A DNA stretch of 64,000 nucleotides from the NCBI RefSeq assembly GCF_002056295.1, contig NZ_CP020100.1:566001-630000 (forward strand). The letters run 5' to 3'. The notes below the pieces were generated by a model that was not told the DNA's origin, made no database searches, and saw nothing but the letters and a program-made list of their open reading frames with translations. Shown piece by piece: positions 36,780 to 61,393 of this stretch; within the stretch, counting starts at the first letter, position 1; the number at the start of each line of letters is the position of its first letter. A program made the position numbers and the translations under genes. The DNA comes from Halopseudomonas phragmitis (lineage in GTDB: Bacteria; Pseudomonadota; Gammaproteobacteria; Pseudomonadales; Pseudomonadaceae).

Positions 36780-37700
36780 TTACAGCAGACTGAACAAGGT
36801 TAGCTGATTCAGCTTCAAATAGGTCTGCTGCGTTGCCTGCAGGGCCAGCATGTACTGGTTCAGATCAATACTCGCGCCAGCGTAATCGAGCTGCGACAGC
36901 TCGCCCTCGATCTTCTGATTGACCAACGACACCTCAGTATTGCTGTCATCTAGCAGAGTCAGGGTATTTTGCCGCCCACCCAGTTCGGAGACCTGCCCCA
37001 GCAGGTTGACATGAGTACGGTCCAACTCGTTCAGAGTGTCGGTCAACTGCTGCTTGAGCAGCGGATCAGAGGCGTCCAGCAGCGGGTCCTGCAGCATGCC
37101 GACCAGTTCATGCAGACGATTGAGGAAATCCAGGTCAGTGCCGAAGATTTCCATCACGGTAACGTTTTCGTCAATCAGCACGCCGTTGGCCACCGCGGCC
37201 TGGCGATGCTTGTCATTGCCGCTGGCCTGATAGCTGCCAGTGAGCGGATCGAAGGTCACCGCCGGGTTATTGCTGAGAGTGCCGGAAAACAGGAAGCGAC
37301 CTTCCTCGTCACGCACATTCAGAAAGCTCACGAGCGTCTGCTCGATGTTGGCCATTTCCCCGGCGATCGCTCGCAGGTCGTCATCGCCATTGGTGTCGTT
37401 GGCCGCCCACAGCAACAGGTCGCGCAGGCTGAGCATGGTATCGGAGGCCGCCGTGAGATTGGTCTCCTGGGTCGCCAGGCTGCCGGACAAAGTGCCGATG
37501 TTGCTCCGGTACTGGGCCAGACTGGCCTCCTCGCGCTGGATGCGCAGCAGGCGCACGCTGGCTACCGGGTCATCGGAAGGCTGCAATAGCCGCTGGCCGG
37601 TCGCCATCTGCTGCATCAGCTTGCCCAACTGTGCCGAATTGGCATTCATTGAGCCCTGCATCATGGCGGTAATCTGGGCGTTGGTGATGCGCATGCTCAT
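36780..37700 (-). CDS. flgL: Flagellar hook-filament junction protein FlgL (HAP3)
   Basis: 306 aa. Connects hook-associated FlgK to the filament. N-terminus MRITNAQITAMMQGSMNANSAQLGKLMQQMATGQRLLQPSDDPVASVRLLRIQRE matches flagellin-like HAP3 helices; the C-terminus (EGELSQLDYAGASIDLNQYMLALQATQQTYLKLNQLTLFSLL) is the paired terminal helix. The central domain (about 130-230) is short. Start taken as ATG 37700 (MSMRITNAQ); the internal Met gives MRITN as in other FlgL. Downstream of flgK by 32 bp and followed by the LafW-like gene. Exported unfolded by the type III apparatus, with FlgN as the likely chaperone. Confidence 0.93.
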   Translation of the reverse strand: MSMRITNAQITAMMQGSMNANSAQLGKLMQQMATGQRLLQPSDDPVASVRLLRIQREEASLAQYRSNIGTLSGSLATQETNLTAASDTMLSLRDLLLWAANDTNGDDDLRAIAGEMANIEQTLVSFLNVRDEEGRFLFSGTLSNNPAVTFDPLTGSYQASGNDKHRQAAVANGVLIDENVTVMEIFGTDLDFLNRLHELVGMLQDPLLDASDPLLKQQLTDTLNELDRTHVNLLGQVSELGGRQNTLTLLDDSNTEVSLVNQKIEGELSQLDYAGASIDLNQYMLALQATQQTYLKLNQLTLFSLL

Positions 37701-37732
37701 GCGGCCTTGTCACTCCGGATTTATCGTTGTTG

Positions 37733-39097
37733 TCAGAACGCGGCCAACAGGTCGTCGAACAGTTGGCTGGCCGTGGTAATCACCTTCATGTTGGCCTGAT
37801 AGGCCTGCATGTAACTCATCAGGTTGACCGCCTCCTCATCCAGGTTGACCGCGCTGATGCTGTCACGCTGGGCCTGGGCCTGCTCCAGCACAGCGGTCGC
37901 CGAACGCAGGTCGGCCTGGTTCTGCCGACTGTCGCTGGCCACCTGGCCGAGCAGCCCGGCATAGGCATCGTTGAGGGTGACCTGATTACCATTGAGCGTG
38001 ATCGGTGCCTGACGCAGCTCCAGCAAGGCCAGCAACGCCTGGTTGTTACCCACCTCGCCAGGCTCACCTGACAGCGCCAGCTCCGAAGCACTGAGAGGGT
38101 TGACGGTCAGCATTGCGGTGATGCTGGTGGGGTCGTAACTGAACAGCGGCTGCCCCGGGTTGCCCTGCAGATCATAACCACCAGCCAGCACCGCATTGAC
38201 TGCCTGGCTCAACTCGCTGGCCATGCCATGCAGGGCCTGCTGGGTCGGGCGCAGCGATTGGTATTCGACCTTGTACAGGCCACCCAACGCACCACCCAGG
38301 CTGTCCTGGGTCAGCGGAAAACTGGAGGTGGCAAAGCTCAGAGCCAGTTGCTGCTCGCCGCTGGGTAACTGATTGACCTCAAGCCGGCCGGCGGTACTGC
38401 CGGCTACCAATGGCTGGCCGTTGCTCAGCGATACGGTCAGCGAACCATCATCGACTTCGTTGACCCGGATACCGGCGAACTGGCTGAGCTCCTTGACCAG
38501 AATTTCCCGGTGGTCGCGCAGTGCTTTGCTGTCGCCACCCACCGACTCGGTAGCGACGATCTGCCGGTTGAGTTCGGCGATATTGCCGAGCAGCCCGTTG
38601 ACCTCCACGCTCATGCTCTGACGTTGCTCATGCAGTGCACGCAACTGGGCGTCGATATTGCCATTCAGGCCATTGAAGCGCTGAGCCAGGTTGCCAGCCT
38701 CGCTGATCGCCTGCTGACGCAGGGCCGGCGACTCGGGGCTGACGGTCAGCTCGCTGAGCGCGGCGAAGAACTGGTCAAGGCCGATGCTGATACTGGAGCC
38801 ATCGCCACTCATCAGGCTTTCCAGCGCGCCAAGATACTGCTGGGCACTGGTATGGGCGTGCATTTCGGTATTGGCCCGCCACAACTGCTGATTCTGAAAC
38901 TCGCTGGTCATACGCCGGATACTGGTGACCTGCACCCCGCCACCGGCGGTCAGTCCGGCCTGGCCGGACAGCGAGCTCATTACCGAAGTCAGCCGGCTGA
39001 AACCCGGAGTATGCACGTTGGCAATATTTTGACCGGTCGCGGTCAGCGCCAACTGTGTCGCGTGCAGACCGGTGTAGGCAATCTGGCTCAGGCTCAT
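37733..39097 (-). CDS. flgK: Flagellar hook-filament junction protein FlgK (HAP1)
   Basis: 454 aa. First junction protein on the hook. N-terminal helix MSLSQIAYTGLHATQLALTATGQNIANVHTPGFSR contains the rod/hook consensus NIANVxTPGFSR; the C-terminal helix is DEEAVNLMSYMQAYQANMKVITTASQLFDDLL, with the ANxxVI pattern shared with hook proteins. The central part is shorter than in the polar FlgK of pseudomonads (often above 600 aa). ATG 39097 overlaps the flgJ stop (ATGA), so translation is coupled. FlgN is its probable chaperone. Confidence 0.94.
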   Translation of the reverse strand: MSLSQIAYTGLHATQLALTATGQNIANVHTPGFSRLTSVMSSLSGQAGLTAGGGVQVTSIRRMTSEFQNQQLWRANTEMHAHTSAQQYLGALESLMSGDGSSISIGLDQFFAALSELTVSPESPALRQQAISEAGNLAQRFNGLNGNIDAQLRALHEQRQSMSVEVNGLLGNIAELNRQIVATESVGGDSKALRDHREILVKELSQFAGIRVNEVDDGSLTVSLSNGQPLVAGSTAGRLEVNQLPSGEQQLALSFATSSFPLTQDSLGGALGGLYKVEYQSLRPTQQALHGMASELSQAVNAVLAGGYDLQGNPGQPLFSYDPTSITAMLTVNPLSASELALSGEPGEVGNNQALLALLELRQAPITLNGNQVTLNDAYAGLLGQVASDSRQNQADLRSATAVLEQAQAQRDSISAVNLDEEAVNLMSYMQAYQANMKVITTASQLFDDLLAAF

Positions 39098-40149
39098 GCG
39101 GCAGGCTCCTTGGTGGCAGGCCGGATCGTCGGGGCAAAGGCGGGCGAGCGCAGCGCCAGCTCGCCAGTGCTGCGTTGCCCTTGATCATCCAAGGCGACCG
39201 TCGCCGACTGCGGCTTAAATGTCTCACTCGCGGACTCGCTGCCGACTCGACTCAGCGATGGCCGCAGACTGGGCGGCAAGCTTTCCTGGGCGGTGCTCTG
39301 GCGGATATCGCGCAAAATGTTGCGGGTGTAATTGCGGGTCTCGGCAAACGGAATCCGCTCCACCCACTCAGCCTCACTGACAGAGGGCTGACGCGGGTCG
39401 CCAAAACGTTGCAGCCACTGATCGACCCGACCAGGCCCGGCGTTATAGGCCGCCAGCGCCAGCACTTCGCTGCCGCTATAGCGATCCAGCATCTTGTTCA
39501 GGTAGGCACTGCCCAGGCGCTTGTTGTAATCACCATCCTGCAGCAACCGGGCCTCGTTGTAGGGCACTCCCAGTTCACCGGCCATTTCCCGTGCGGTATC
39601 AGGCATCAGCTGCATCAATCCCAGCGCGCCGACCGGCGACACCGCATCGACCCGCCCACCGGACTCGTGCTTGACCACACTATCGACCAGGCGCTGGAAC
39701 GCTACACTGCCCCGCTCCCAGACCCGCTCCAGTTGTCCGACCCCACGCCGCCAGGTATCGGCCAGCGGCTGAAAACTGCTGGCACTGGCCGTGCTGCGCG
39801 GCAGCGGCTGCTGGTCCATGGCCGCCAGTCGCTGGGCCTGGTCACTGGCGTCCTGATCACCCGCCAGTTGCTGCACCAGCAGATCACTGATGCCGGTCTG
39901 GCGCCGGGTGGCCAGGCTGTCGGCCAGGGTTTCATCATAGAAATCGCGCAGCGTGTCGAGGTCGCGGCTACGCATCGGGTTATCGGCACTGAGCACGTCC
40001 CCGGCCTTGCGCATCTGCTTGAGGATCTGTTGCAGGAACATGGCCTCGAACTGCTCGGCGGCGGCCTCCAGTTGCTGGCGACGGGCGTCGACTGCGCCAC
40101 CGTGGGCGCTCAGGCGTTGCTGCGGATGGGTTAGCGATAGAATATTCAT
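39094..40149 (-). CDS. flgJ: FlgJ: rod-binding protein fused to an Slt-type lytic transglycosylase
   Basis: About 351 aa. Start taken as ATG 40149 (MNILSL); GTG 40155, which overlaps the flgI stop, is equally possible. Residues about 25-95 are the rod-cap domain (LEAAAEQFEAMFLQQILKQMRKAGD, DLDTLRDFYDETLADSL). A linker of about 50 residues follows. The C-terminal enzyme is not the expected glucosaminidase (GH73): VVKHESGGRVDAVSPVGALGLMQLMPDTAREMA, with catalytic Glu in HESGG near residue 162, and LALAAYNAGPGRVDQWL and IPFAETRNYTRNIL are the motifs of Slt70-like lytic transglycosylases (GH23). It would open peptidoglycan for the rod. The last 50 residues have no known domain. Confidence 0.92.
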   Translation of the reverse strand: MNILSLTHPQQRLSAHGGAVDARRQQLEAAAEQFEAMFLQQILKQMRKAGDVLSADNPMRSRDLDTLRDFYDETLADSLATRRQTGISDLLVQQLAGDQDASDQAQRLAAMDQQPLPRSTASASSFQPLADTWRRGVGQLERVWERGSVAFQRLVDSVVKHESGGRVDAVSPVGALGLMQLMPDTAREMAGELGVPYNEARLLQDGDYNKRLGSAYLNKMLDRYSGSEVLALAAYNAGPGRVDQWLQRFGDPRQPSVSEAEWVERIPFAETRNYTRNILRDIRQSTAQESLPPSLRPSLSRVGSESASETFKPQSATVALDDQGQRSTGELALRSPAFAPTIRPATKEPAA

Positions 40150-40151
40150 GG

Positions 40152-41255
40152 TCACATTACGATCAATTCGGCGTTCAGGGCCCCGGCCCGTTCCAGCGAC
40201 TGGAGGATGCTCATCACATCATCCGGGGTCGCGCCCAGGCTGTTGACGGTACTGATGATACTTTGCAGGCTGGCGCCCTCGGGCCACTCGAACATAGGCT
40301 TGACCTGCTGCGCCACCTCAATGCCGGTACGCGGCACAACTGCGGTCTCTCCGCCGGAGAAGGGCCCAGGCTGGCTGACTTCCGGGTTCTCGCTGATGGT
40401 CACGGTCAGGGTGCCGTGGGCCACGGCTGCAGCCCGGACCCGCACGCCTTCGCCGACCACCACGGTACCGGTGCGGCTGTTGAACACCACCTTGGGCCGG
40501 GTCCTGCCCTGCTCGATCTGCAACCCTTCCAGCATGGCCATGAAACTCATGCGCTGGGTACTGGACACCGGGGCACGGACCGAAACCTTGGTGGCGTTCA
40601 GGGCCTTGGCGGTCCCCGGGCCGAAAATGTCGTCGATACGCTCAACAATCCGGGTTACGGTCTGGAAACTGGGCTGACGGACATTGAGCATCACCTCGGG
40701 GCGTTCGGCGAAATCACTCGGAATCATGCGTTCGACGGTCGCCCCATTGGGAATCAGCCCGGTATTGGCGCTATTGACCGCCACGCTCGAGCCACTGGCA
40801 CCGGAGGCATTCAGTCCGCCCACAACCAGATCACCCTGAGCCAGGGCGTAAACCTCACCATCGATACCGCGCAGCGGGGTCATCAGCAGCAAGCCGCCGC
40901 GCAGACTCTTGGCATCGCCCAGCGACGATACGGTGACATCGATGCTCTGGCCCGGACTGAAGGAGGGCGGCACCTCGGCAGTCACCATCACCGCCGCAGC
41001 ATTTTTCAGGTTCGGGTTGACGTTCTGCGGCAGGCTGACGCCGAATTCCTGCAGCAGGTTGGCCACCGACTGGCCGGTAAAACGCACCTGACTACGGTCA
41101 CCGGTACCGTCCAGGCCGACCACCAGGCCGTAGCCGATCAACTGGTTGCCACGAATACCCTCGACATCCACCAGATCCATCAGCGCGACCTGAGCCCGGA
41201 CCGGTGCGGCCAGCAGGCTCGCCAACAGTATCAACAGGGTGATAACGACACGCAT
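40152..41255 (-). CDS. flgI: Flagellar P-ring protein FlgI
   Basis: 367 aa, periplasmic. Signal peptide MRVVITLLILLASLLAAPVRA; mature start QVALMDLVDVEGIRGNQLIGYGLVVGLDGTGDRS is highly conserved in FlgI. Further landmarks: LPQNVNPNLKNAAAVMVTAEVPPS, SLGDAKSLRGGLLLMTPLRGIDGEVYALAQGDLVVGG, NGATVERMIPSDF, and LQSIISTVNSLGATPDDVMSILQSLERAGALNAELIVM at the C-terminus. It polymerises into the P-ring around the rod, helped by the FlgA chaperone encoded at the divergent side of the locus. Gene 13 bp after flgH; the stop overlaps a GTG of flgJ. Confidence 0.96.
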   Translation of the reverse strand: MRVVITLLILLASLLAAPVRAQVALMDLVDVEGIRGNQLIGYGLVVGLDGTGDRSQVRFTGQSVANLLQEFGVSLPQNVNPNLKNAAAVMVTAEVPPSFSPGQSIDVTVSSLGDAKSLRGGLLLMTPLRGIDGEVYALAQGDLVVGGLNASGASGSSVAVNSANTGLIPNGATVERMIPSDFAERPEVMLNVRQPSFQTVTRIVERIDDIFGPGTAKALNATKVSVRAPVSSTQRMSFMAMLEGLQIEQGRTRPKVVFNSRTGTVVVGEGVRVRAAAVAHGTLTVTISENPEVSQPGPFSGGETAVVPRTGIEVAQQVKPMFEWPEGASLQSIISTVNSLGATPDDVMSILQSLERAGALNAELIVM

Positions 41256-41268
41256 CAGCAGCTCCGGA

Positions 41269-41928
41269 TCAAAGAGGGAACAAAGGACTGGTGAAGAACC
41301 GGGTCAACCAGCCGGGGCTGTTGCTGTCGGCCAGCACCCCACGTCCGGCGTAGGAAATACGCGCATTGGCGATATTCTGCGACGACACCTGATTGAAGCG
41401 GTTGATATCGTCGGCGCGCACCAGCCCGGTCAGCCGAATGACCTCGTCACCCTGGTTCAGGCGCAGGGCTTTCTCACCCTTGACCACCAGAGTGCCGCCC
41501 GGCAGCACCTGATGCACAGTCACCGCGATCGAGCCGCGCAGGGTGTTCTGCTGCGAGCTACGCGCCGAGCCGCTGAAGTCGCGCTCGGCTGAGGCCGAGC
41601 TTTCCAGCCGGTCGATATCACGCCCGAACAGGGTCGGCACCCCGACCCCCATGCTGGTGGACTTGCCGAAGCTGGTGCCGGCGCTCTTGCTCGACTGGGT
41701 CGACTCTTCCAGCACCACGGTGATGATGTCGCCGACCCGGGTGGCACGCCGATCGCCGACCAGCGAGCCGCTGTAGCCGCTACGGAACAGCCCACCCGCC
41801 TGGGCTTCGGGCAGGATGTAGTCGGGCTCGGCCGGGGCATAGAGTTCGGCGTCGTCGGCATACAACCCGCCGTAACTCTGACAGCCACCCAGCAGCAGCA
41901 ACCCCAGCAGACAAAGAGCGCGCTTCAT
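41269..41928 (-). CDS. flgH: Flagellar L-ring lipoprotein FlgH
   Basis: 219 aa from ATG 41928 (MKRALCLLGLLLLGGCQS), 4 bp after the flgG stop; an upstream start in the flgG coding region is rejected because the lipoprotein signal must be N-terminal. Lipobox LLGGC places the acylated Cys at residue 17. Mature motifs: GSLVGDRRATRVGDIITVVLEESTQSSKSAGTSFGKS, LPGGTLVVKGEKALRLNQGDEVIRLTGLVRADDIN, NQVSSQNIANARISYAGRG, all typical of FlgH. It forms the outer-membrane ring of the basal body. Its presence fits a Gram-negative, non-sheath-specific motor. Confidence 0.95.
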   Translation of the reverse strand: MKRALCLLGLLLLGGCQSYGGLYADDAELYAPAEPDYILPEAQAGGLFRSGYSGSLVGDRRATRVGDIITVVLEESTQSSKSAGTSFGKSTSMGVGVPTLFGRDIDRLESSASAERDFSGSARSSQQNTLRGSIAVTVHQVLPGGTLVVKGEKALRLNQGDEVIRLTGLVRADDINRFNQVSSQNIANARISYAGRGVLADSNSPGWLTRFFTSPLFPL

Positions 41929-41932
41929 CGGC

Positions 41933-42718
41933 TTATACCGTCTGATTGAGGAACTGCTGCATGCCCGAGGCCGCATCCAGTACCTTGGCATTGGCTTCGT
42001 AGGCGCGCTGGATCGCGATCATCGACACCATGGCCTCGACCACCTGGACATTCGAGCCTTCCAGCACGCCCTGTTTGAGCTGACCCAGGCCATCGGCCCC
42101 CGGCTCGCCCTCGACCGGCTCACCGCTGGCGATAGTCTCGCGATACAGGTTGCCGCCCAGCGCCTCAAGACCCGCCGGATTGGCGAAGTTGGCCAGGGTA
42201 ATCTGCCCCAGCTCAACCGGCAGCGCCTCTCCGGCCAGCACCGCGGTGACAATGCCATCGCTGCTGACGGTAAAGCGGCTGCTACCGGCCGGCACTTCGA
42301 TCGCCGGCACCAGCGGCAGGCCCTGTGCATTGACCATCAGGCCCTCGGCATTGAGCTGGAACTGACCATTTTCGGTGTAGAACACCTCGCCGGCCGGCGA
42401 TTCGACCTGAAAGAAACCGTTACCGACAATCGCCAGATCCATCGGCTGACCGGTGGTCTGCATGCTGCCTTCGGTAAACACCTTCTGGGTCCCAGCTACC
42501 CGCACGCCACTGCCAAGCTGGATTCCCGAGGGCACGGTGTTGACCTGATCAGCCTGGGCCCCAGGCTGCTTTTCGATGGTGTAGAACAGATCCTCGAACA
42601 CCACCCGATCGCTCTTGAAGCCGTTGGTGTTGACGTTGGCCAGGTTGTTGGCCACCGCTGACAGCGCCTTGTCCTGCGCGGCCAGACCGGTTTTGCTCAC
42701 CCACAATGCTGAACTCAT
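41933..42718 (-). CDS. flgG: Distal rod protein FlgG
   Basis: 261 aa, the family's usual length. N-terminus MSSALWVSKTGLAAQDKALSAVANNLANVNTNGFKSDRVVFEDLFYT contains the rod signature and the FlgG-specific segment after it; FTEGSMQTTGQPMDLAIVGNGFFQV is the shared rod/hook core; the C-terminus VQVVEAMVSMIAIQRAYEANAKVLDAASGMQQFLNQTV is the paired helix. Exported by the type III apparatus and assembled on FlgB/C/F. The gene follows flgF by 13 bp and flgH follows it by 4 bp. Confidence 0.96.
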   Translation of the reverse strand: MSSALWVSKTGLAAQDKALSAVANNLANVNTNGFKSDRVVFEDLFYTIEKQPGAQADQVNTVPSGIQLGSGVRVAGTQKVFTEGSMQTTGQPMDLAIVGNGFFQVESPAGEVFYTENGQFQLNAEGLMVNAQGLPLVPAIEVPAGSSRFTVSSDGIVTAVLAGEALPVELGQITLANFANPAGLEALGGNLYRETIASGEPVEGEPGADGLGQLKQGVLEGSNVQVVEAMVSMIAIQRAYEANAKVLDAASGMQQFLNQTV

Positions 42719-42731
42719 TTCATCTCTCCCC

Positions 42732-43463
42732 TCAGCTGCCGCGCATCATGCGGTTGCCGACCGTTGACAGATCGTCGGCGGCTTTCATCATTTTTACCTG
42801 GGTCTCGAACAGCCGGTTCAGGCTCATGGTCGATACCAGTTGCTCAATCGCCGACACGTTGCTCGACTCCAGATGACCGGAGACCAGCACCACGCCATCA
42901 TTCAGTTCTGCCGGCTGGCCGTCCTGGCTGGCGAGCAGCCCATCGAGCCGCTTGCTCAGGGCTTCGGCCGGCAGATCGACCAGCTTGATCCGCCCCGCTT
43001 CCAGGGTCAGGAAGTCGCCACGCGGCATGACCGAAATCACCCCGTCGCTGCCGATGTTGATACTGTCGTATTCGGGCAGCACGATCGGCCCGTCCTCGCC
43101 CAGCACCGGCCGGCCATTGACGGTCAGGCGCATCTCGGCGTCGACCTGCAAGCTGCCATGGCGGGTATAGGCCTCGCTGCCGTCGGCGGCTTCCACGGCG
43201 ATCAGGCCATGGCCCTGAATCGCCACGTCCAGCGGTCGACCGGTCGCCATCAACGTGCCCGGGCGCAGATCGACACCGGAGTTTCTGACCACCGCCAGAT
43301 GCCGGCTGTCATAGCCATAGCCTTGCACTGCAACAGCCTGCGCGGCCTCCAGGTCAGCCCGAAAACCCGGGGTGTTGACGTTGGCCAGGTTGTTGGCCTG
43401 CACCTGCAGCGACAGCATGCTGCGGCTGGCGGCGGTCATTGCGGTATAACCCAAACGGTCCAT
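42732..43463 (-). CDS. flgF: Proximal rod protein FlgF
   Basis: 243 aa. N-terminus MDRLGYTAMTAASRSMLSLQVQANNLANVNTPGFRADLEAAQ shows the NNLANVNTPGFRAD motif; MATGRPLDVAIQGHGLIAVEAADGSEAYTRHGSLQV is the core D1 segment of FlgF; the C-terminal helix is SNVSAIEQLVSTMSLNRLFETQVKMMKAADDLSTVGNRMMRGS. Rod subunit between FlgC and FlgG. ATG 43463, 9 bp after the flgE stop. Order flgE-flgF-flgG is the universal rod/hook order. Confidence 0.95.
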   Translation of the reverse strand: MDRLGYTAMTAASRSMLSLQVQANNLANVNTPGFRADLEAAQAVAVQGYGYDSRHLAVVRNSGVDLRPGTLMATGRPLDVAIQGHGLIAVEAADGSEAYTRHGSLQVDAEMRLTVNGRPVLGEDGPIVLPEYDSINIGSDGVISVMPRGDFLTLEAGRIKLVDLPAEALSKRLDGLLASQDGQPAELNDGVVLVSGHLESSNVSAIEQLVSTMSLNRLFETQVKMMKAADDLSTVGNRMMRGS

Positions 43464-43472
43464 GACTCAGCC

Positions 43473-44660
43473 TCAGATCGCGTTGAACAGCACCTGGGTG
43501 AGTTCCTTGTCGGTACTCAACACCTTGGAGTTGGCCTGGTAGTTGCGCTGACTTTCCATCAGCCCGACCAGTTGCTGGGTCAGATCGACGTTGGAGTTTT
43601 CCAGCGAGCCGGAGGCGATCTGGCCGTTCTGGCCGACGCCAGGAATACCGATCAACGGATCGCCAGACTCGTCGCTGGCGCTCCACTGGGTGCCGCTCTC
43701 ATTCTTCAGCCCCTGCGGATTGACGAAGTTGGCCAGCACCAACTGGCCCTGCAACATGCGCTGGCCGTTGCTATAGGTGGCGTAGATCCGGCCGTCCTTC
43801 TCGACCGCCAGCCCGGTCTGCTCACCGGCGCTGTAACCGGTGGCCCGGTTGCTGGTCACCACGAAATCGGAGCCGTACTGACTGGTGCCGCTGTAGTCGA
43901 CCTCAATGGCGATCGGGTTGGCACCCGGCACCGGGAAACCGACCGCGACGGTGCCGACCGGCCCGGTCAGGGCGCCATCGGTACCAAAGGTGATCGCCTG
44001 CGGGCCAGCAACAGCGGCGCCATCGGCGTAGTAATGGGCTTCCCAGGTATTGTCCGCGGTCTTGACGAAATACTGGGTCAGGGTGTGCTCACGGCCCAGC
44101 GAGTCGTAGATCTTGGTGGTGTAGGTTGAGTTGAAAGTGTCGGCGTTGTCCGGGTCGAACGGCGCCAGCGCCGGTACATCCTGGTTGGCGTTGAGGTTGG
44201 CGACGAAGTTCAGACTGTCGGTGGCCCGCGCCGGCAGGTTGGTGGTCTGCAACTGGATATCACCGATCCCGCCCATCTGCAGGTTGCCAGCGGCATCGAC
44301 CGGATAGCCCTGCAACCGGCTGCCGGTGGCGCTGACCACATAATTCTGGTTGTCGGTATTGAATACCCCGGCACGGGTAAACATCTGCTCGCCGCTGGTG
44401 CTGCGAGTGACGAAGAATCCGCCGCCGGAAATCCCCAGATCCAGGGTCCGCCCGGTAGCCACCAGCGTACCGTTCTGGGAAATGCTCTGGGTCTTGCCCA
44501 GCACCTCGACCCCCAGTGCCTGCGACTCGGCATAGACGCTGCCGAAGTCGGCACGCGAGGATTTAAAGCCGGTGGTGCCGGCGTTGGCAATGTTGTGGCT
44601 GATGGTCCCGAGCTGTTCGGAGACGGCGTTCAGGCCAGACAGGGCGATATTGAAACTCAT
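43473..44660 (-). CDS. flgE: Flagellar hook protein FlgE
   Basis: 395 aa, in the size range of Salmonella hook protein. N-terminus MSFNIALSGLNAVSEQLGTISHNIANAGTTGFKSSRADFGSVYA; GTLVATGRTLDLGISGGGFFVTRSTSGEQMFTRAGVFNTDNQNYVV is the D0/D1 core; TYTTKIYDSLGREHTLTQYFVKT marks the central D2 region; C-terminus GSLENSNVDLTQQLVGLMESQRNYQANSKVLSTDKELTQVLFNAI. Polymerises into the hook under control of the FliK ruler. Follows flgD by 36 bp. Confidence 0.96.
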   Translation of the reverse strand: MSFNIALSGLNAVSEQLGTISHNIANAGTTGFKSSRADFGSVYAESQALGVEVLGKTQSISQNGTLVATGRTLDLGISGGGFFVTRSTSGEQMFTRAGVFNTDNQNYVVSATGSRLQGYPVDAAGNLQMGGIGDIQLQTTNLPARATDSLNFVANLNANQDVPALAPFDPDNADTFNSTYTTKIYDSLGREHTLTQYFVKTADNTWEAHYYADGAAVAGPQAITFGTDGALTGPVGTVAVGFPVPGANPIAIEVDYSGTSQYGSDFVVTSNRATGYSAGEQTGLAVEKDGRIYATYSNGQRMLQGQLVLANFVNPQGLKNESGTQWSASDESGDPLIGIPGVGQNGQIASGSLENSNVDLTQQLVGLMESQRNYQANSKVLSTDKELTQVLFNAI

Positions 44661-44696
44661 GGGGTACTGCCTCCCGAAAAAGGTGCTTGCAAAGGA

Positions 44697-45377
44697 TTAC
44701 ATCAGCCCGGTCAGCGGCTGCCGACCAAACTCGGTGATCAAATAGAACGGCACGCTGCCGACTCCGGCGATTTCCAGTACCGGCCCTTCATCGCTGACCC
44801 GTACCTGAGCCACCGTGCCAGCCACTTCAACCTGTGGATACTCGCCGGTATCGGTCTCGACCTCGATCAGATAATGGCCGGGGCTGAGCCCCAGGGCCTG
44901 CGGATCAATCTCGAAGTTGACCGCGCCGGCAGCCTGCCCGCCCAGGCGGATCTCATGGGTCTGGCCAGTGCCATCGGTCAAGCGCACCAGGGTCTGGCCC
45001 GAAGCGTGCTGCTGGTTGATCCGGCCACTGACCACCTGATCGCTCAGTTGCAGCCGCTCGACCTGCACCTTGACCTCCTGCCCGACCAGACCGGCTGCAG
45101 TCAGGGTTTGCAGGTTGTCCATCAGGATCAGGTTGTTGCGGCTCAGCGCCGCCATGTTCTCCAGACTCTTGACCTGGGACATGGCCGAGAACTGATTAAG
45201 GAACTCGGTACCATCGAGCGGATTGGTCGGATCCTGGTTCTGGATCTGGGCGGTCATCAGGGTGATGAAGGTGTTCTCCATCTGCGCCGCATCACTGAGA
45301 TTGACCGCCTGGCGCGGTGACTCATTGCCGGCTGCCGAACTGCTGCCCGAGCCATATTGCGTATTAACCGTAGTCAT
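44697..45377 (-). CDS. flgD: Hook assembly scaffold FlgD
   Basis: 226 aa. Forms the transient cap for hook growth. The N-terminal export/cap segment MENTFITLMTAQIQNQDPTNPLDGTEFLNQFSAMSQVKSLENM is the FlgD hallmark; the following FLGD/Ig and tudor-like domain begins near LVGQEVKVQVERLQLSDQVVSGRI and continues EIRLGGQAAGAVNFEIDPQALGLSPGHYLIEVETDTG. ATG 45377 shares its A with the TGA of flgC (TGATG), so expression is coupled. Confidence 0.94.
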   Translation of the reverse strand: MTTVNTQYGSGSSSAAGNESPRQAVNLSDAAQMENTFITLMTAQIQNQDPTNPLDGTEFLNQFSAMSQVKSLENMAALSRNNLILMDNLQTLTAAGLVGQEVKVQVERLQLSDQVVSGRINQQHASGQTLVRLTDGTGQTHEIRLGGQAAGAVNFEIDPQALGLSPGHYLIEVETDTGEYPQVEVAGTVAQVRVSDEGPVLEIAGVGSVPFYLITEFGRQPLTGLM

Positions 45378-45805
45378 CAGACTTCCCCCAGTCGCAGCAG
45401 GCCCTGCTGCATGCTCTTGATCCGGTTCAACACCTCGACACTGGTCTCGAAGCTGCGCGAGGCCGACATCATGTCGGTCATTTCCTCGATACTGTTGACG
45501 TCGGGGTAATAGACATAACCCTCGGCATTGGCTAACGGGTTGCCCGGCTCATAGCGGCGCTGCGGATCACGCCCGGTGGTCACCACATCCAGCACCTGCA
45601 CATGGGCGCCGCCCATGCCGACCGGTCGGGTCAGTTCGCCGTTCTCGTAGACGGCGGCGAACACCGGCTTGCGCGCCTTGTAGACGGCATCTTCACTGCT
45701 GGCCGCCGACTCGGCGTTAGCCAGGTTGCTGGCCACGGTATTGAGTCGCACGGTCTGGGCATTCATGGCCGAGCCGGCAATGCGATAAATCGAATCGAAC
45801 GACAT
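45377..45805 (-). CDS. flgC: Proximal rod protein FlgC
   Basis: 142 aa, normal size. N-terminus MSFDSIYRIAGSAMNAQTVRLNTVASNLANAESAASSEDAVYKARKPVFAAVY has the rod motif in a slightly altered form (SNLANAESA); the C-terminus is VNSIEEMTDMMSASRSFETSVEVLNRIKSMQQGLLRLG, the FlgC tail with DVNSIEEM. Rod subunit above the MS ring. It starts 2 bp after the flgB stop and its stop overlaps flgD. Confidence 0.95.
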   Translation of the reverse strand: MSFDSIYRIAGSAMNAQTVRLNTVASNLANAESAASSEDAVYKARKPVFAAVYENGELTRPVGMGGAHVQVLDVVTTGRDPQRRYEPGNPLANAEGYVYYPDVNSIEEMTDMMSASRSFETSVEVLNRIKSMQQGLLRLGEV

Positions 45806-45807
45806 GC

Positions 45808-46173
45808 TTACTGTCCTTCTATGGCTTTTTTCAGCCCGCTGAATTTCATGGTCAGGAAGGTCAGGCTGGTCTGGAAATCCATGGCGTTACGGGAAAACTC
45901 GGCCTGCTCGACGCCCAGCTCCACGGTATTGCCATCCTGCGAGGCCTGGTGCGGCACCCGGTACTTCAGCTCCTGGGCTGACAGTCCAGCGTTCAGAGAC
46001 ATGCCCGCACCCTGCTCAAGGCGACGCATGGCGGAAGCGAAATCGATATCCCGGGCCTGAAATCCCGGCGTGCTTTCGTTGGCCAGGTTGGCCGCCAGAA
46101 TCTCGCTGCGCTGCATCCGCAGCTCCAGCGCCTGGACATGCACCCCCAATGCCTTGTCGATCTGTATACTCAC
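45808..46173 (-). CDS. flgB: Proximal rod protein FlgB (GTG start)
   Basis: 121 aa starting at GTG 46173-46171 (MSIQIDKALGVHVQALELRMQRSEILAANLANESTPGFQARDIDF), with AGGG 6-7 bp upstream; no ATG fits the conserved N-terminus. The rod motif ANLANESTPGFQARD and the C-terminal helix NTVELGVEQAEFSRNAMDFQTSLTFLTMKFSGLKKAIEG are typical. First gene of the rod/hook operon that runs to 35726. A divergent region of 109 bp separates it from flgA and holds a possible sigma54 promoter. Confidence 0.93.
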   Translation of the reverse strand: MSIQIDKALGVHVQALELRMQRSEILAANLANESTPGFQARDIDFASAMRRLEQGAGMSLNAGLSAQELKYRVPHQASQDGNTVELGVEQAEFSRNAMDFQTSLTFLTMKFSGLKKAIEGQ

Positions 46174-46222
46174 TGTCGGGCCCTGTTCAAAAGTCGTGAC
46201 GGCACACTTCCATGCGCACAAT

Positions 46223-50609: not shown

Positions 50610-51533
50610 TTAGAGCGACTCCGTACCTTCACGGTACTCGGCACCCTGTTCAGAGTAATCGACCCGCGCAGTACGCTCGCCGAACAACTCCTGATACAGG
50701 GTTTCAGCCTGGATAGTCAGCAGCAATAGCTCAATACGCCGGTTGGCGCCACTTTCCGGCTCATCCGGGCGTAGCAACATGCCGTCGGCCTGGGCGGTAA
50801 CCTGCAGAATATGCGCCCCCGGCAGACCGGCCTCGACCAGCACATTGCGGGCTCGCAGGGCCCGATCGCCAGACAGGTTCCAGTTGTTGTAGCCAGCACC
50901 ACCACGATAAGGCGTGGCATCGGTATGACCGCTGATGATCAGCTTGTTGTCGACCCGCCCCAACACGGCAGCCAGACGCCCGAGCAAGGCATGAAAGTGT
51001 GGATTAAGTACGGCGCTGCCGCGCTGGAACATGAACCGCTGCTGATCGTCCTTGACCAGAATCCGCAAGCCCTGGGGCACCACCTCCACCTCCAGATTGG
51101 CCTCGGCGTTAACCGCCTCGGCCATCTCGCGCATCAGTTCAGCCAGACTCTGCAGCTCTTCAATCCCGGCCAGCCCCAGATGCTCCCGGCTATCCAACTC
51201 AAGCTGGCGTGAGCGTGCTGGTGCTGGCGGCTCATCACCGACGGAGACCGTCGCACTGTCACCCAGGCTCTCGATCAACAGTGGGCTGGTGCCATCAAAA
51301 ATACCGGCACCGCCTTCCCAAACCGGGCTGGCCAGCGCTTCACTGCTGTGCTTGGCCGCTTCCTCGTTCTTCATCGCTTGAACCAGCCAAAGCACCATGA
51401 ACAGCGCCATCATGGCCATGGTGAAGTCGGCGAAGGCAACCTTCCAGGCACCACTATGTTCGTCGTCGTGATCCTTTTTGGCCTTGCGCTTGACGATGGT
51501 TATCTCGTCATGGTTCGCGCCACGCTTTTTCAT
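50610..51533 (-). CDS. motB: Flagellar stator protein MotB/LafU
   Basis: 307 aa. Stator subunit that anchors the ion channel to peptidoglycan. Single TM helix about 33-55 (WKVAFADFTMAMMALFMVLWLVQAM); FADF holds the essential ion-binding Asp (residue 36). The C-terminal OmpA-like domain has FMFQRGSAVLNPHFHALLGRL, IISGHTDATPY and NNWNLSGDRALRARNVLVEAG, the peptidoglycan-binding motif. The plug/linker (about 60-150) is relatively long. ATG 51533 overlaps the motA stop (ATGA). In lateral systems this pair is LafT/LafU and uses protons; ion preference cannot be read here. Confidence 0.94.
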   Translation of the reverse strand: MKKRGANHDEITIVKRKAKKDHDDEHSGAWKVAFADFTMAMMALFMVLWLVQAMKNEEAAKHSSEALASPVWEGGAGIFDGTSPLLIESLGDSATVSVGDEPPAPARSRQLELDSREHLGLAGIEELQSLAELMREMAEAVNAEANLEVEVVPQGLRILVKDDQQRFMFQRGSAVLNPHFHALLGRLAAVLGRVDNKLIISGHTDATPYRGGAGYNNWNLSGDRALRARNVLVEAGLPGAHILQVTAQADGMLLRPDEPESGANRRIELLLLTIQAETLYQELFGERTARVDYSEQGAEYREGTESL

Positions 51534-52402
51534 GCCGCGTCCCTTTGCTCTTCAAAGTCGTTGACCCAGACCTCCAGCTCCTTGAACGCCGGCTTGACGT
51601 CCTGCTCGATCAACTTGCGCCCGGCATCCACCGCCAGCAACGTCGGCTTGCCGGCCAGATGCGCAACCAGGGTGGTACGCACACACTCCAGCGCCGACAG
51701 CTCGGTCTTGATCCGCAAGCCCATGGCGTTGCTGAGCGGTCCCATCAGGCAGTAGCACAGAAAGATCCCGAAGAAGGTTCCTACCAGCGCCGCCGCCACA
51801 TGGTTACCGATCTCGGCCACCGAGCCATCGATATGGCCCATGGTAATGACGATCCCCATGATCGCCGCCAAAATGCCGAAACCCGGCATGGCCTCGCCGG
51901 TCTTGTGCAGCGAGCGTGAGGGCTGCATCAAGGCCGCCTCCATGGCATCCAGCTCCTGCTCCAGGAAGCCTTCAAGCTCATGGGCGCTGATCTTGCCCAT
52001 GGCCATCAGCCGGAAGTTGTCGGCGATGAAGGCCATCAGGTTGCGCTCCTGACTGATCAACGGGTACTTGTTGAACAGCTCGCTTTCCTCCGGCTCTTCG
52101 ATATGCTGATCCAGCGCCTTGAGTCCACCGACCTCGACCGTTTCCAGCAATTCATACAGCAGCATCAGCAACTGACGCTGAAACTCTTCACCCCGGCGCC
52201 GGTAGATGAACACCCCCTTGGCCTGGGTCAGCATTTCACCCAGCACTTCCTTGGGATTACCAACAATCAGGCTGCCGATCCCGGCGCCGAGGATGATGAC
52301 CATTTCCGCCGGCTGCCAGAGCATGGCCATGTCACCGTTGGCCATGGCATAGCCACCCAGAACACCGGCAATGATGATGAAGGATCCAAGTACTTTCAGC
52401 AT
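51530..52402 (-). CDS. motA: Flagellar stator protein MotA/LafT
   Basis: 290 aa, four TM helices: MLKVLGSFIIIAGVLGGYAMANGD; MVIILGAGIGSLIVG; and the pair PGFGILAAIMGIVITMGHIDGS and AALVGTFFGIFLCYCLMGPLSNAM, which line the channel. The cytoplasmic loop carries RQLLMLLYELLETVEVGGLKAL and NFRLMAMGKISAHELEGFLEQELDAME, the region that touches FliG through Arg/Glu. Sequence style is of the MotA/LafT type of proton-driven stators. ATG 52402 follows the fliA stop by 6 bp. Confidence 0.95.
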   Translation of the reverse strand: MLKVLGSFIIIAGVLGGYAMANGDMAMLWQPAEMVIILGAGIGSLIVGNPKEVLGEMLTQAKGVFIYRRRGEEFQRQLLMLLYELLETVEVGGLKALDQHIEEPEESELFNKYPLISQERNLMAFIADNFRLMAMGKISAHELEGFLEQELDAMEAALMQPSRSLHKTGEAMPGFGILAAIMGIVITMGHIDGSVAEIGNHVAAALVGTFFGIFLCYCLMGPLSNAMGLRIKTELSALECVRTTLVAHLAGKPTLLAVDAGRKLIEQDVKPAFKELEVWVNDFEEQRDAA

Positions 52403-52408
52403 GATGGT

Positions 52409-53149
52409 TCAGGACTCTGCATGTGCGGTTAGAAAGGCGCAGGCTTTGCTCAGGGCCTGCTTGCTCAGTTGACAGACCCGGGCATCGCTCAGATCGAGGA
52501 CCAGGGCGATTTCCTTGAGACTCAGTTCCTGCTGGTAATAAAGGGTCAGAATCAGCCGCTCGCGCTCCGTCAACCGGCTCAGTGCCTGGGTCAGCAGCCG
52601 CTGCTGGAGCAAACGCTCCTCAAAGCCGTTACTCTGTTCCGCGCCAGGCTCCAGCCCCTTCTGCAGCAAGTCGTCGAGGCTTTCCACCGCCTCGACGGCA
52701 TCGGCCTGGAGAAAGTCGAGATAGCCCTGCTGGTCGAGCCCGGTATGTGCGAGAATTTCCTCATCGCAGGGCTCACGCCCCAGGCTCCGCCCCAATGCAC
52801 GAATCGCATCACGAACTTTATGCACCTGCTGGCGCACCTGGCGCGGTCGCCAGTCCTGGCGCCGCAGTTCATCGAGAATGGCACCGCGAATACGCAGAGC
52901 GGCAAAGCGTCCAAAGTGCTCGTCGGGGGCCCCGTAACGACGCAGACCTTCGAGCAGTCCCATCAGTCCAATCTGCTCCATGTCCTCGCGATCAAGCACC
53001 TGATTGGCCTGCAACGACAACTGGTTGACGATACGCCGTACCAGCGGCAGGTACTGACGCACCCAGCGCTGCTCCTCAGCCGCCGACAGCAGCACTGACG
53101 CTCCCTGGGGCGAACCGTAATCGTGATCGATGGCACAGTTGGCGTTCAT
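52409..53149 (-). CDS. fliA: Flagellar sigma factor FliA/LafS (sigma28)
   Basis: 246 aa, sigma28 group. Region 2: RWVRQYLPLVRRIVNQLSLQANQVLDREDMEQIGLMGLLEGLRRYGAPDEHFGRFAALRIRGAILDELRRQDW. Region 3: RQVRQQVHKVRDAIRALGRSLGREPCDEEILAHTGLD. Region 4: LTQALSRLTERERLILTLYYQQELSLKEIALVLDLSDARVCQLSKQALSKACAFL. It should direct late genes (flagellins, motors) and is held back by FlgM. Sitting next to motA and motB matches lafSTU and indicates that this system has its own sigma28, separate from a polar FliA elsewhere. Confidence 0.94.
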   Translation of the reverse strand: MNANCAIDHDYGSPQGASVLLSAAEEQRWVRQYLPLVRRIVNQLSLQANQVLDREDMEQIGLMGLLEGLRRYGAPDEHFGRFAALRIRGAILDELRRQDWRPRQVRQQVHKVRDAIRALGRSLGREPCDEEILAHTGLDQQGYLDFLQADAVEAVESLDDLLQKGLEPGAEQSNGFEERLLQQRLLTQALSRLTERERLILTLYYQQELSLKEIALVLDLSDARVCQLSKQALSKACAFLTAHAES

Positions 53150-53160
53150 CTGGGCACCTG

Positions 53161-53631
53161 TTACTGGACGATCATCTTGCTGACCAGCACATGGGCGAAC
53201 GGCTGGCTTAGATTGCGTGCGGCCAGATCGGCGACCAGCACCGACTCCAGACGCCCTTGCAGTTCACCGATCGACATGGCGCGCAACTCCTGAAAATCCA
53301 GACCGGACAAATGAGCCACTACCGAGTTGCGCACAATCGGATCGATCTGCTCCAGGCGCCGCTGATCAACTTCCAGTTCGGCCTGCAACACCAGATCAAG
53401 CACGAAATAATGCTCGCGGTTCTGCCCACGCAGATTGACGATCACCTTTTCGATCGGAAAGAACTGGAACTCCCGGGTAAGACTTTCTTTTGGCGGCTCG
53501 GCTGCCTGGAAAAGTCCGACAGGCCCAGCCGCCGAAATGTTGTTCAGCAGATGCAGGTTCAGCCCCACACTGCCCAGCAGTACAAGGGTATTGATGATCA
53601 GAACAATCAGGATAATGCGTGGCAACGCCAT
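53161..53631 (-). CDS. fliL: Flagellar basal-body protein FliL/LafF
   Basis: 156 aa. One N-terminal TM helix (LPRIILIVLIINTLVLLGSVGLNLHLL, about 3-28) and a periplasmic stomatin-like domain: FFPIEKVIVNLRGQNREHYFVLDLVLQAELEVDQRRLEQIDPIVRNSVVAHLSGLDFQEL and the C-terminal VADLAARNLSQPFAHVLVSKMIVQ. FliL stabilises stators around the basal body and is needed for swarming in some species. ATG 53631; the 11-bp gap to fliA and 45-bp gap to the FliK-like gene keep it inside the operon. Confidence 0.93.
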   Translation of the reverse strand: MALPRIILIVLIINTLVLLGSVGLNLHLLNNISAAGPVGLFQAAEPPKESLTREFQFFPIEKVIVNLRGQNREHYFVLDLVLQAELEVDQRRLEQIDPIVRNSVVAHLSGLDFQELRAMSIGELQGRLESVLVADLAARNLSQPFAHVLVSKMIVQ

Positions 53632-53676
53632 GATTCATACTCGCTTGCGATTGGGAAACCGTCGGAGCCCGCAGGC

Positions 53677-54807
53677 TCAGACACTGATCAACACATCATC
53701 CGGCTGGCCACTGCCATGGCGACCTGCCGTCTCGTTTGGCAGCTCTTGGGCTTGGCGCACCAGCTCTTGCTCTGGCAGTTGCTGGCGACCTTGACGGCCC
53801 TGCTCAGCGTCGGCACCAACCTGCACCTCAACCTGGGTGAAGTGCAGCCCCATCAGTTCGTTGCGCAGGCGCTCACTGAGCAAATTCAGCAGGCGCGCGA
53901 CATCCGCCTGGGCGGCATTGATCTGCACACTGAGCTTGCCCTGCTCGTGCTGAATCTGGATGTCCAGACTGCCCAGCTCTGGCGGGTCCAGGCGGATGGT
54001 TGCCTGCTGCGAACGCTGCTGCACCTGCATTTCCACCTGTTCGCGCAGAGCTGCCAACATCTGCTCACCCCAGCGTGCCTCGGCTGCGACAGGCCGCACC
54101 TCGACCGCCAGGCCCGGATTGATCACGGGGCCCGCCTGAGGTTGAATGGCCGGACTCAGCAGGGCCGGCTCGCCACTGCGCAGCGAGCTGCTCTCAGGTG
54201 CCAGTGCCAACCCTAACGCCTCCGCCAGCATTGGCATTTTCAGCGCCGGGCCTGAGACTTCGGCCCTTGGCTCAAACACACGCACCTGCTCATCCAGACC
54301 CGTTTCTTGAGCCGGCGGCATCAACGTTTGCAGCTGTGGCTGTGGCTGTGGCTGTGGCTGCGGCGTCTGCACCCGCAGATCAGGCTGACGCCCAGCCGGC
54401 TCATGTTCAGCAGCCTGTCGCGCCCTTAGCTGTACAGCCAGCGGCAGATCGACAACGTCCGATTCGGGCACCCCGGGCAGCGATTCACGCGCGCCCAGTT
54501 GCAGACCCTGCAGCTCCTGTTGCTGCTGTAGCCAACCTTCGAGCTGCTCCAGACTCGGCGGCGCCGAGTGCAGCCCCTGTGTAGCCCCATGACTATCCAG
54601 CGGCTCGCGCTCAACTGGCGCCACAACAGCCCCTGACTGCGCCTGATCAGTTGTCGCCTCGGCCAGCAACGCTAGCAGCGTCTGCATGTCTGCAGTTGGC
54701 ACCTCAGCCTGCTCACCTGTCGCGAGGCTCACTACGCTCAGTAGCGCCTCGCGTACAGCCTCGACAGACTCGGCCCGGGCGCCATGGCTGTTACCGATCA
54801 GTTCCAT
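53677..54807 (-). CDS. fliK: Hook-length control protein FliK/LafE
   Basis: 376 aa. Molecular ruler that switches export specificity. The C-terminal domain is the recognisable part: MLAALREQVEMQVQQRSQQATIRLDPPELGSLDIQIQHEQGKLSVQINAAQADVARLLNLLSERLRNELMGLHFTQVEVQV, the Flg_hook domain with PPELGSLDI. The N-terminal 220 residues are low-complexity Gln/Pro-rich, as usual for rulers, and include a PQPQPQPQPQ run made by a GGCTGT hexanucleotide repeat (54333-54362). ATG 54807 shares its A with the TGA of the fliT-like gene. Length would fit a hook of standard size. Confidence 0.88.
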   Translation of the reverse strand: MELIGNSHGARAESVEAVREALLSVVSLATGEQAEVPTADMQTLLALLAEATTDQAQSGAVVAPVEREPLDSHGATQGLHSAPPSLEQLEGWLQQQQELQGLQLGARESLPGVPESDVVDLPLAVQLRARQAAEHEPAGRQPDLRVQTPQPQPQPQPQLQTLMPPAQETGLDEQVRVFEPRAEVSGPALKMPMLAEALGLALAPESSSLRSGEPALLSPAIQPQAGPVINPGLAVEVRPVAAEARWGEQMLAALREQVEMQVQQRSQQATIRLDPPELGSLDIQIQHEQGKLSVQINAAQADVARLLNLLSERLRNELMGLHFTQVEVQVGADAEQGRQGRQQLPEQELVRQAQELPNETAGRHGSGQPDDVLISV

Positions 54808-55130
54808 CACAATCCGTCTCCCCCCAGGCTCTCGGTCTGCAGGTAGGCCGAGCGGCCCTCCCCGTATTCAATATGGCGCTGCAAAACCTGACGCAGGCGC
54901 TCGCATTCAGCCGCACAAGCCTTGACGCCATGGGCGTGCAGGCGTTGCAGGCGTTGGCGCAGCTGACCACTGGCCGGCTCCAGCTCGGCCTCATCCGGCA
55001 AGCTCTGCAACAGTTCACGCACGGCCAGATCGGCCTCGGCGACCGCCTCCCAGTCCGCCGCCTCAAGAGCTTGACGCAACTGGCCGTAGACCCGGGCAAT
55101 GCGCTGGCTCTCAGGGCTGACGGGTGCCAT
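54807..55130 (-). CDS. fliT: FliT-like flagellar export chaperone (LafD position)
   Basis: 107 aa, helical and rich in Gln/Leu/Glu: RIARVYGQLRQALEAADWEAVAEADLAVRELLQSLPD and QLRQRLQRLHAHGVKACAAECERLRQVLQRHIEYGEG. Size and position between fliS and fliK match LafD of lateral loci and FliT, which escorts FliD; sequence similarity is too weak to be sure. ATG 55130 (AAGG upstream) overlaps the fliS 3' end by 20 bp; the stop overlaps the fliK start. Confidence 0.7.
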   Translation of the reverse strand: MAPVSPESQRIARVYGQLRQALEAADWEAVAEADLAVRELLQSLPDEAELEPASGQLRQRLQRLHAHGVKACAAECERLRQVLQRHIEYGEGRSAYLQTESLGGDGL

Positions 55131-55512
55131 TCACACCTTCCCAGCCTTCACGCAGAATGCCGACCAGCTCGATCACCTCGTCCATGCCTTCGAGCGACAG
55201 GCTGACGCTGACATCGGAAAGTCGGTAGATGCAGTAGTCGTACAACCGGGCCAGGCCTGCCACAACCTCACCGCCGTTGTCGAAATCCAGAGCGCTGTTA
55301 AGGCCGTTGAGGATGCTCATGCACTTTTCCAGTGACACGCCCTTTTGCTGGTAGCGCCGGCCTTCGATATGACCGCGAGCCCGGGCCAGCTCATCAAGCA
55401 GGCCATCGAACAGAACCAGCACCAGTTCATAGGGCGAGGCCGCTGCAGCCTTGGCTTCCAGATCTACCGAGCGGTATTGCTGGTAGCTGTCATTGAGGTA
55501 GTAATCGTTCAT
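55111..55512 (-). CDS. fliS: Flagellin export chaperone FliS/LafC
   Basis: 133 aa. MNDYYLNDSYQQYRSVDLEAKAAAASPYELVLVLFDGLLDELARARGHIEG matches FliS, including YxxxxVxxASPxELxxMLxxG; the next helix KGVSLEKCMSILNGLNSALDFDNGGEVVAGLARLYDYCIYRLSDVSVSLSLEGMDEVIELVGILREGWEGV completes the four-helix fold. It keeps the flagellins monomeric before export. ATG 55512 shares its A with the fliD TGA. The 20-bp overlap with the fliT-like gene points to translational coupling. Confidence 0.94.
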   Translation of the reverse strand: MNDYYLNDSYQQYRSVDLEAKAAAASPYELVLVLFDGLLDELARARGHIEGRRYQQKGVSLEKCMSILNGLNSALDFDNGGEVVAGLARLYDYCIYRLSDVSVSLSLEGMDEVIELVGILREGWEGVNGTRQP

Positions 55513-56843: not shown

Positions 56844-56868
56844 CGTCGGGTATCCTTTGACAGCCTTC

Positions 56869-56887
56869 AAGCAATAACAATGCCAAG
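56869..56887 (-). promoter_or_regulatory. Candidate sigma54 promoter of the fliD-motB operon
   Basis: Minus strand TTGGCATTGTTATTGCTT: GG (56884-56883) and GC (56872-56871) are separated by exactly 10 bases and both boxes fit (-24 TTGGCA, -12 TTGCTT). Transcription would start near 56860, about 17 bases before the fliD ATG with its RBS. LafK-type activators work with sigma54, and one is encoded at 63.4 kb. The remaining 220 bp to flgN (56888-57109) show no gene. Confidence 0.7.
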
Positions 56888-57109
56888 ACATCAAGCCATT
56901 GATTTAAATGGCTTTAAGCCAGATAACAGGTGAAAAACGTCTTCCGCTTGAGCGACCTTATGCAGCCAGCGGAAATGCTCCTTCCCCTCGGCAAGAATCA
57001 ACGCGGATCAGGGAAAACCGCACAGCGTGACAAACAACACAGGCGACAGCTGAGCTGCACCGCTTAAGCCTGAGCGACGATCAACAAGCCCAAAGGCTCA
57101 AGGAATTAC

Positions 57110-60354: not shown

Positions 60355-60365
60355 GCTGCCTCCGG

Positions 60366-61382: not shown

Positions 61383-61393
61383 TGCCAGGCCCC

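Follow-up and report, generated by a model that had tools for sequence, protein, structure and literature searches.

A lytic transglycosylase domain fused to the FlgJ of a predicted lateral flagellar system in Halopseudomonas phragmitis

In the Salmonella type of FlgJ the N-terminal domain caps the flagellar rod and the C-terminal domain cuts the cell wall, whereas the single-domain FlgJ of Borrelia has the transglycosylase BB0259 as an interaction partner (both according to the accessible part of PMC8517470). A single-domain FlgJ is also found in Rhodobacter sphaeroides, where it interacts with the Sec-exported SltF; this enzyme is stimulated by FlgB and inhibited by FlgC and FlgJ (accessible part of PMC7277832). 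Here we describe a FlgJ in which the rod-binding domain is followed, in one reading frame, by a soluble lytic transglycosylase (SLT) domain of family GH23. Its gene lies in a stretch of 64,000 nucleotides from Halopseudomonas phragmitis (NZ_CP020100.1, positions 566,001 to 630,000; the window), within a second flagellar system that appears to be of the lateral type.

The explanation that we favour as a whole, with a probability of roughly four in five, is that this protein is a lateral rod cap with an active-looking GH23 domain, which would be exported by the type III apparatus as a wall cutter, and that the SLT part was added once. The fusion is a conserved variation on the known theme of the dual-domain FlgJ. 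No description of an SLT-FlgJ fusion was recognised in the open-access literature searched, as judged mostly from listings. A 2006 paper reportedly dealt with the plasticity of FlgJ domains and may bear on the fusion. The accessible part of PMC5031763, on the second flagellum of Pseudomonas fluorescens F113 and its relation to that of Azotobacter, makes no mention of FlgJ, and neither does that of PMC8042155, in which lateral flagella form a separate clade.

Domain layout and catalytic site

The gene is read from the minus strand, from an ATG at 40149 to a stop at 39094, exactly where a first-pass annotation of the window had placed it. An alternative GTG start is possible at 40155, and in most relatives an MSI or MNI start stands at the same place as that of the window gene. 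The annotation had described a rod-cap domain followed by a GH23 domain in place of a glucosaminidase, and the Pfam scan agrees with it. PF10135 matched residues 44-94 with 38 bits against a cut-off of 25.1, which places the protein in the FlgJ rod-binding family; PF01464 matched residues 153-251 (E=1.8e-23, 82.7 bits against a cut-off of 21.3), and no match to PF01832 (GH73) was listed up to E=1. The score for TIGR02541, the dual-domain FlgJ with GH73, was 58.5 bits, below the curated 193, and that for NF047373, the BB0259 type, was 124.6 bits, below the curated 234, with the match limited to the catalytic domain. Unlike the separate SltF-type protein the lateral FlgJ is one fused frame, and no Sec signal peptide was seen by eye in its translation. 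The motifs HESGG, GLMQLMPDTA and AAYNAGPGRV, on which the annotation was built, are all in the translation, as is ETRNY.

ETR-Y is a further motif of SLT domains. The catalytic glutamate in ES, together with GLMQ and AYNAG, is given as an SLT motif in the accessible part of PMC8517470, and all four motifs are present in the lateral FlgJ. Across 66 fused copies (64 related loci described below, the window and a further locus, L191) ES, AAYNAGP, ETR.Y and the residues GDPR were found without exception, and GLMQLMP or GVMQLMP in 65. When the protein was compared with solved structures by phmmer, residues 155-280 matched the catalytic domain of Pseudomonas aeruginosa Slt (6fbt/5ohu, E ~1e-26) and E162, the predicted catalytic residue, aligned gap-free to position 503 of 5ohu; the title of structure 6fc4 reads 'inactive mutant E503Q'. 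The AlphaFold2 (AF2) model was confident for the SLT part (predicted local distance difference test, pLDDT, mostly >90), much of the linker and tail was modelled poorly, and Foldseek ranked P. aeruginosa Slt first as the nearest solved fold. For 11 chosen pairs the nonsynonymous rate (dN) of the SLT part was 0.007-0.144, the synonymous rate (dS) 0.15-1.04 and dN/dS about 0.01-0.30, indicating that this domain is under purifying selection. The dN of the linker was higher than that of both domains in these pairs, with W133 nearly invariant within an otherwise variable stretch.

As proteins from 64 loci align with both domains (47-96% identity in the best-matching segment), the fusion is not a chance event, and the Rod-binding and GH23 architecture is confirmed at sequence level as a conserved one. 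That gene calling or assembly has artificially joined two genes is practically negligible as an explanation, since a single frame runs through both parts in 64 loci from different genome records and both domains are under purifying selection. A more serious objection is that the SLT part is a relic or a non-catalytic regulator, the wall being cut by other lytic enzymes or by the polar FlgJ. Enzyme-free lateral FlgJ proteins in Vibrio campbellii, the Escherichia coli second system (whose operon we take to be the one known as Flag-2), Serpens and others are in keeping with this idea, but the glutamate motif is unbroken in 66/66 copies and dN/dS in the SLT part is low, and we regard it as improbable.

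Distribution of the fusion and the conserved tail

In the alignment-based genome searches only a few top candidates in each genome were scored, and the counts always include the window itself. They gave the full-length fusion in 4/58 relatives, which belong to one and the same genus, in 7/390 genomes at the level of the order, including one from another family, and in 1/369 and 4/299 genomes of the class and phylum respectively. When the genome collection was screened with two rod-domain peptide patterns of this subfamily, by which remote fusions could be missed, 67 loci were returned, of which 64 have the SLT domain in the same frame and three do not. The record titles of the fused loci give Pseudomonas, Stutzerimonas or Pseudomonadaceae, almost always one of the two genera, except for a metagenome-assembled genome (MAG) labelled Lysobacteraceae (L121). 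In a 40-member set of the family (A4) PF10135 was present throughout, 37 members being Rod-binding plus SLT and the other three Rod-binding only. The SLT domain is general in the pseudomonad lateral FlgJ found here. No record in the plasmid collection covered 80% of the lateral FlgJ.

At the three loci without a fused SLT, no frame matched the SLT domain of the window at E<=1e-8. A separate SLT protein of another type at the Pseudomonas flexibilis locus (L127 16084-17289; PF01464 2.2e-24, MltC-like by eye) fell below this BLAST step and gave a weak FlgJ match in the gene-order comparison; its gene adjoins one for an LPP20-type lipoprotein.

The protein was first thought to end in an extra tail of 50 residues. 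A tail is present, although the region after the SLT domain is about 68 residues long and is no random extra, its conserved end being found also in the three homologs without fused SLT. AFA (searched as [AS]FA) occurs near the end of 68/69 copies; of these 68, 63 have Q directly after it and 67 have R three positions later. A337, F338, A339 and R343 are nearly invariant in A4. The exception is L191 2519-3469, the FlgJ-SLT of genome G341 from another family, which is without the AFAQPIR end and stops after a VAL motif. Because the tail codons vary (alanine is written by four codons and phenylalanine by two), conservation appears to act on the protein and not on the DNA alone. At the KE codons, however, the DNA sequence itself probably matters: these are mostly AAGGAG or AAGGAA, just ahead of the start of flgK, the ATG of which overlaps the flgJ stop (ATGA).

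L126-L128, the three homologs that have no fused SLT, scored 43-55 bits with a tail profile built without them, and since they carry the tail too, it probably serves the cap or its export rather than the enzyme. None of the FlgJ proteins tested from outside the pseudomonad lateral clade exceeded 2 bits with this profile. The FlgJ of V. campbellii (L196 7052-7600) ends TTAFTQPLIRKMEL, which resembles AFAQPIR to the eye, but the profile lends no support to an ancient tail: it scored -0.1 bits, and 75/2000 shuffles scored as high.

Origin of the transglycosylase domain

The other FlgJ of the window genome (L001) is Rod-binding plus GH73 (PF01832 9.4e-37). PF10135 was found at two places in this genome, and nine further fusion genomes likewise have two places each; the second place was scanned, and found to be GH73, in the window genome only. 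Among 40 FlgJ frames from the class searches, which are the better-scoring class loci and not a random draw, 37 matched PF01832, none was listed with PF01464 and three had neither (L143 is cut by a contig end; L134 and L146 are single-domain), so that GH73 is indeed the usual gammaproteobacterial partner. The GH23 domain is not common to all lateral FlgJ either. Rod-binding only was found in the E. coli second system (99 amino acids), V. campbellii (182), a V. breoganii plasmid (154) and genome G697 (121).

A rooted tree built from seven concatenated Flg proteins supported the lateral clade at 100/100, and four single-domain rows (E. coli, G697 and the two from Vibrio) branched below the pseudomonads. 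L121, which has the SLT domain, paired with Alkalilimnicola, which does not (100/100), and Serpens and P. flexibilis, also without it, were nested inside the pseudomonads (99/97); for Klebsiella and Aeromonas the domain states come from annotation and visual inspection. Because the lateral lineage is single-domain at its base, the SLT domain would have been added where no GH73 existed; most likely a lateral FlgJ of one domain received it, at a point between its rod domain and its tail. It appears to have been gained once and lost at least twice, in Alkalilimnicola and in Serpens/P. flexibilis.

The first-pass annotation had called the fusion a domain swap. This holds in so far as GH23 sits where polar gammaproteobacterial FlgJ has GH73, but an exchange as such does not agree with a basal lateral FlgJ of one domain, and it was given up as first choice for that reason. 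For an ancestral GH73 of lateral FlgJ to have been replaced by GH23, one can point to the GH73 of 37/40 FlgJ from the class searches and of the polar FlgJ in the window genome; a 328-residue lateral FlgJ (FlgJL) of Plesiomonas, listed in the accessible part of PMC4481668, could also matter here. All four lateral rows below the pseudomonad clade are nevertheless Rod-binding only, as are three members inside it, and we consider a true swap very doubtful.

The source of the SLT domain was sought in two trees. The first comprised 100 rows and 144 columns, with a bootstrap that had not quite settled: 25 FlgJ-SLT domains picked for diversity, 50 gammaproteobacterial Slt proteins and 25 from genomes of another class of the phylum, alphaproteobacterial by inference, which were chosen as the best matches to a FlgJ-SLT profile and so lean towards likeness. 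The FlgJ-SLT domains formed one clade (100/100), and together with the non-gammaproteobacterial Slt they were split from the gammaproteobacterial Slt (100/99). The GDPR loop divides the rows in the same way, being present in 25/25 FlgJ-SLT, 24/25 non-gammaproteobacterial Slt and 0/50 gammaproteobacterial Slt. A phylum search with the SLT part at E<=1e-40 returned 55 such non-gammaproteobacterial genomes against one Slt of the same class, and the class search returned one Slt. The second tree, to which Slt of Aeromonas, Comamonas and Sphingobium and two enterobacterial plasmid SLT proteins were added, kept the split from the gammaproteobacterial Slt (100/100).

An origin from the host's own Slt70 was rejected on the evidence of both trees and the GDPR loop. 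An alphaproteobacterial origin was favoured at first, and became one possibility among others after the plasmid rows had been added, with the alphaproteobacterial rows as one clade not rejected (approximately unbiased test, p=0.455) and the Aeromonas Slt 53% identical to the SLT part, as high as the best non-gammaproteobacterial row (53.5%). By these comparisons FlgJ-SLT does not group with gammaproteobacterial Slt70, and several donor sources are possible. The two plasmid proteins (L198, L199) are short SLT proteins close to the FlgJ-SLT domain, encoded on enterobacterial plasmids typed MPF_F, and their genes have as neighbours an H-NS-like gene and one for a restriction endonuclease.

Several observations weigh against a single addition of a working enzyme. 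One gain and two losses make three changes, the same as independent gains; an earlier, larger and quicker tree left the placement of Serpens and P. flexibilis unsettled, and V. breoganii and Klebsiella have long branches in the seven-Flg tree. The two plasmid SLT proteins form a long branch within the FlgJ-SLT clade, and the P. flexibilis locus does carry its separate SLT protein, encoded downstream of the unfused flgJ at a distance of about 5.6 kb. The existence of enzyme-free lateral FlgJ means that the enzyme domain is not indispensable, the full-length AF2 model is moderate (pLDDT 72.6; predicted template modelling score, pTM, 0.50), leaving the arrangement of the domains uncertain, and the selective make-up of the 40-frame census counts on the same side. 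The equal number of changes and the sister relation of L121 (SLT) and L128 (no SLT) would suit several fusion origins, or a spread of the SLT domain between flgJ genes by recombination. Such a history seems to us unlikely, though worth keeping in mind: all 25 FlgJ-SLT domains group in a single clade, in which L121 is the outermost member and the others are joined at 85/96, in line with the flg trees, and fused and unfused copies have the same tail. A single gain followed by losses remains our preferred history.

The flagellar locus and comparison with known systems

The features of the window are collected in Table 1. The position of flgJ between flgI and flgK is that of the FlgJ family, and flgA is divergent from flgBCDEFGHIJKL, with two flagellin genes adjoining it. 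FlgH and FlgK were named by the Pfam scan and the remaining flg products from translations and homology; the start of flgB at about 46200 was chosen within a longer frame. The Pfam matches from MotB to FliF span 50610-63046, and because they include MotB, MotA, a sigma factor and FliL to FliF, they indicate a second flagellar system, of which fliM, fliN, fliP-R, flhA and flhB may lie beyond the window. In the plasmid collection the best matches of the operon's FlgI were from V. campbellii (58.7%) and E. coli records (57%), with P. aeruginosa at 53.6%, and in the seven-Flg tree the V. campbellii and E. coli types joined the lateral clade (100/100) apart from the polar rows. By relationship, then, the system would be of the lateral type.

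Table 1. Coordinates of the fused flgJ, its parts and the surrounding flagellar genes in the window.
Feature	Coordinates	Strand	Basis
Lateral flgJ, Rod-binding + SLT fusion, 351 amino acids	39094..40149	minus	translation and Pfam
Rod-binding domain PF10135, residues 44-94	39868..40020	minus	Pfam, E=2.5e-9
Linker (variable), residues 95-152	39694..39867	minus	conservation and dN
SLT / GH23 lytic transglycosylase domain, about residues 153-283	39301..39693	minus	Pfam match 153-251; fold
Codon of E162, predicted catalytic glutamate	39664..39666	minus	alignment to Slt 5ohu; ES motif
Conserved tail, residues 335-351, family consensus SAAFAQPIRxExKE	39097..39147	minus	motif census and profile
AAGGAG inside the KE codons, probable Shine-Dalgarno of flgK	39106..39111	minus	sequence
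flgI, directly upstream of flgJ in the same operon	40152..41255	minus	
flgK, directly downstream, 4-base overlap with flgJ	37733..39097	minus	
flg operon, flgB to flgL	36780..46200	minus	gene order common to related loci
Second-system genes motB, motA, FliA-type sigma factor, fliL, fliK, fliD, flgN	within 50610..63968	minus	Pfam
Second-system genes fliJ, fliI, fliH, fliG, fliF, part of sigma-54 activator	within 50610..63968	minus	Pfam

Two genes after flgL (35153-35611 and 35726-36766, minus strand) had no Pfam match; the larger has a homolog in 67/67 related loci and the smaller in 17/67, and the E. coli second system likewise has a hypothetical gene after flgL. In E. coli E2863 the annotation of that system gives flgK (L195 8124-9500) as a pseudogene, with a stop inside the frame. 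The flagellin genes of the window (47197-48180 and 48421-49281) are adjacent and similar, with 235/275 aligned residues identical, and flagellin was seen in 34/67 related loci within the DNA stretches examined. Beside them, at 49532-50389, is a regulator with an N-terminal Trans_reg_C winged-helix domain and a hydrophobic stretch seen by eye, and a similar gene was seen in 29/67 related loci.

In the mechanism that we propose, the lateral FlgJ would be exported unfolded via the lateral flagellar type III apparatus, a route suggested by its identity as FlgJ and by the absence of a visible signal peptide. Its N-terminal domain would cap the growing rod, while the SLT domain at the rod tip would cut glycan strands by transglycosylation, leaving 1,6-anhydro ends, and so let the rod pass; FlgJ would leave once hook assembly begins. 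The fusion would then do covalently what the Rhodobacter and Borrelia pairs do by binding, and as these pairs are one protein here, FlgJ and transglycosylase may well act as a unit.

A fuller version of this account, tentative and in our estimation a little short of even odds, is that a two-protein module became one type III-exported, cap-tethered transglycosylase in pseudomonad lateral flagella, when a foreign SLT domain, resembling that of alphaproteobacteria or conjugative plasmids more than host Slt70, was inserted between rod domain and tail. Each cell would then have two chemically different cutters, a glucosaminidase for one flagellum and a transglycosylase for the other. If this were true, a bulgecin-type transglycosylase inhibitor could switch off one flagellum only. 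The GH73 cap and the GH23 cap offer a natural contrast within one cell, separable by a class-specific inhibitor or by mutation of the glutamate. The fusion shows that the wall-cutting part of the rod cap can be exchanged and that its recruitment took place separately in different flagella.

The window FlgJ resembles the Salmonella-type dual-domain FlgJ in that a rod-cap N-terminal domain is fused to a peptidoglycan cutter and the gene follows flgI; it differs in that the cutter is a GH23 lytic transglycosylase and not a GH73 glucosaminidase, and in its conserved tail. With SltF of R. sphaeroides and BB0259 of Borrelia it shares a rod cap that works with an SLT-type transglycosylase, although those systems consist of two proteins, with SltF exported via Sec, whereas here there is one polypeptide. 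Slt70/Slt has the same catalytic domain with all motifs and provides the nearest solved structures, but the window FlgJ is without the long pre-catalytic part of Slt (the match to the PDB chains begins at about residue 457-496), and FlgJ-SLT stands on a branch separate from gammaproteobacterial Slt and has the GDPR loop. The single-domain FlgJ of the E. coli second system and of Vibrio belongs to the same lateral lineage and has the same operon order; unlike the window FlgJ, it carries no enzyme domain.

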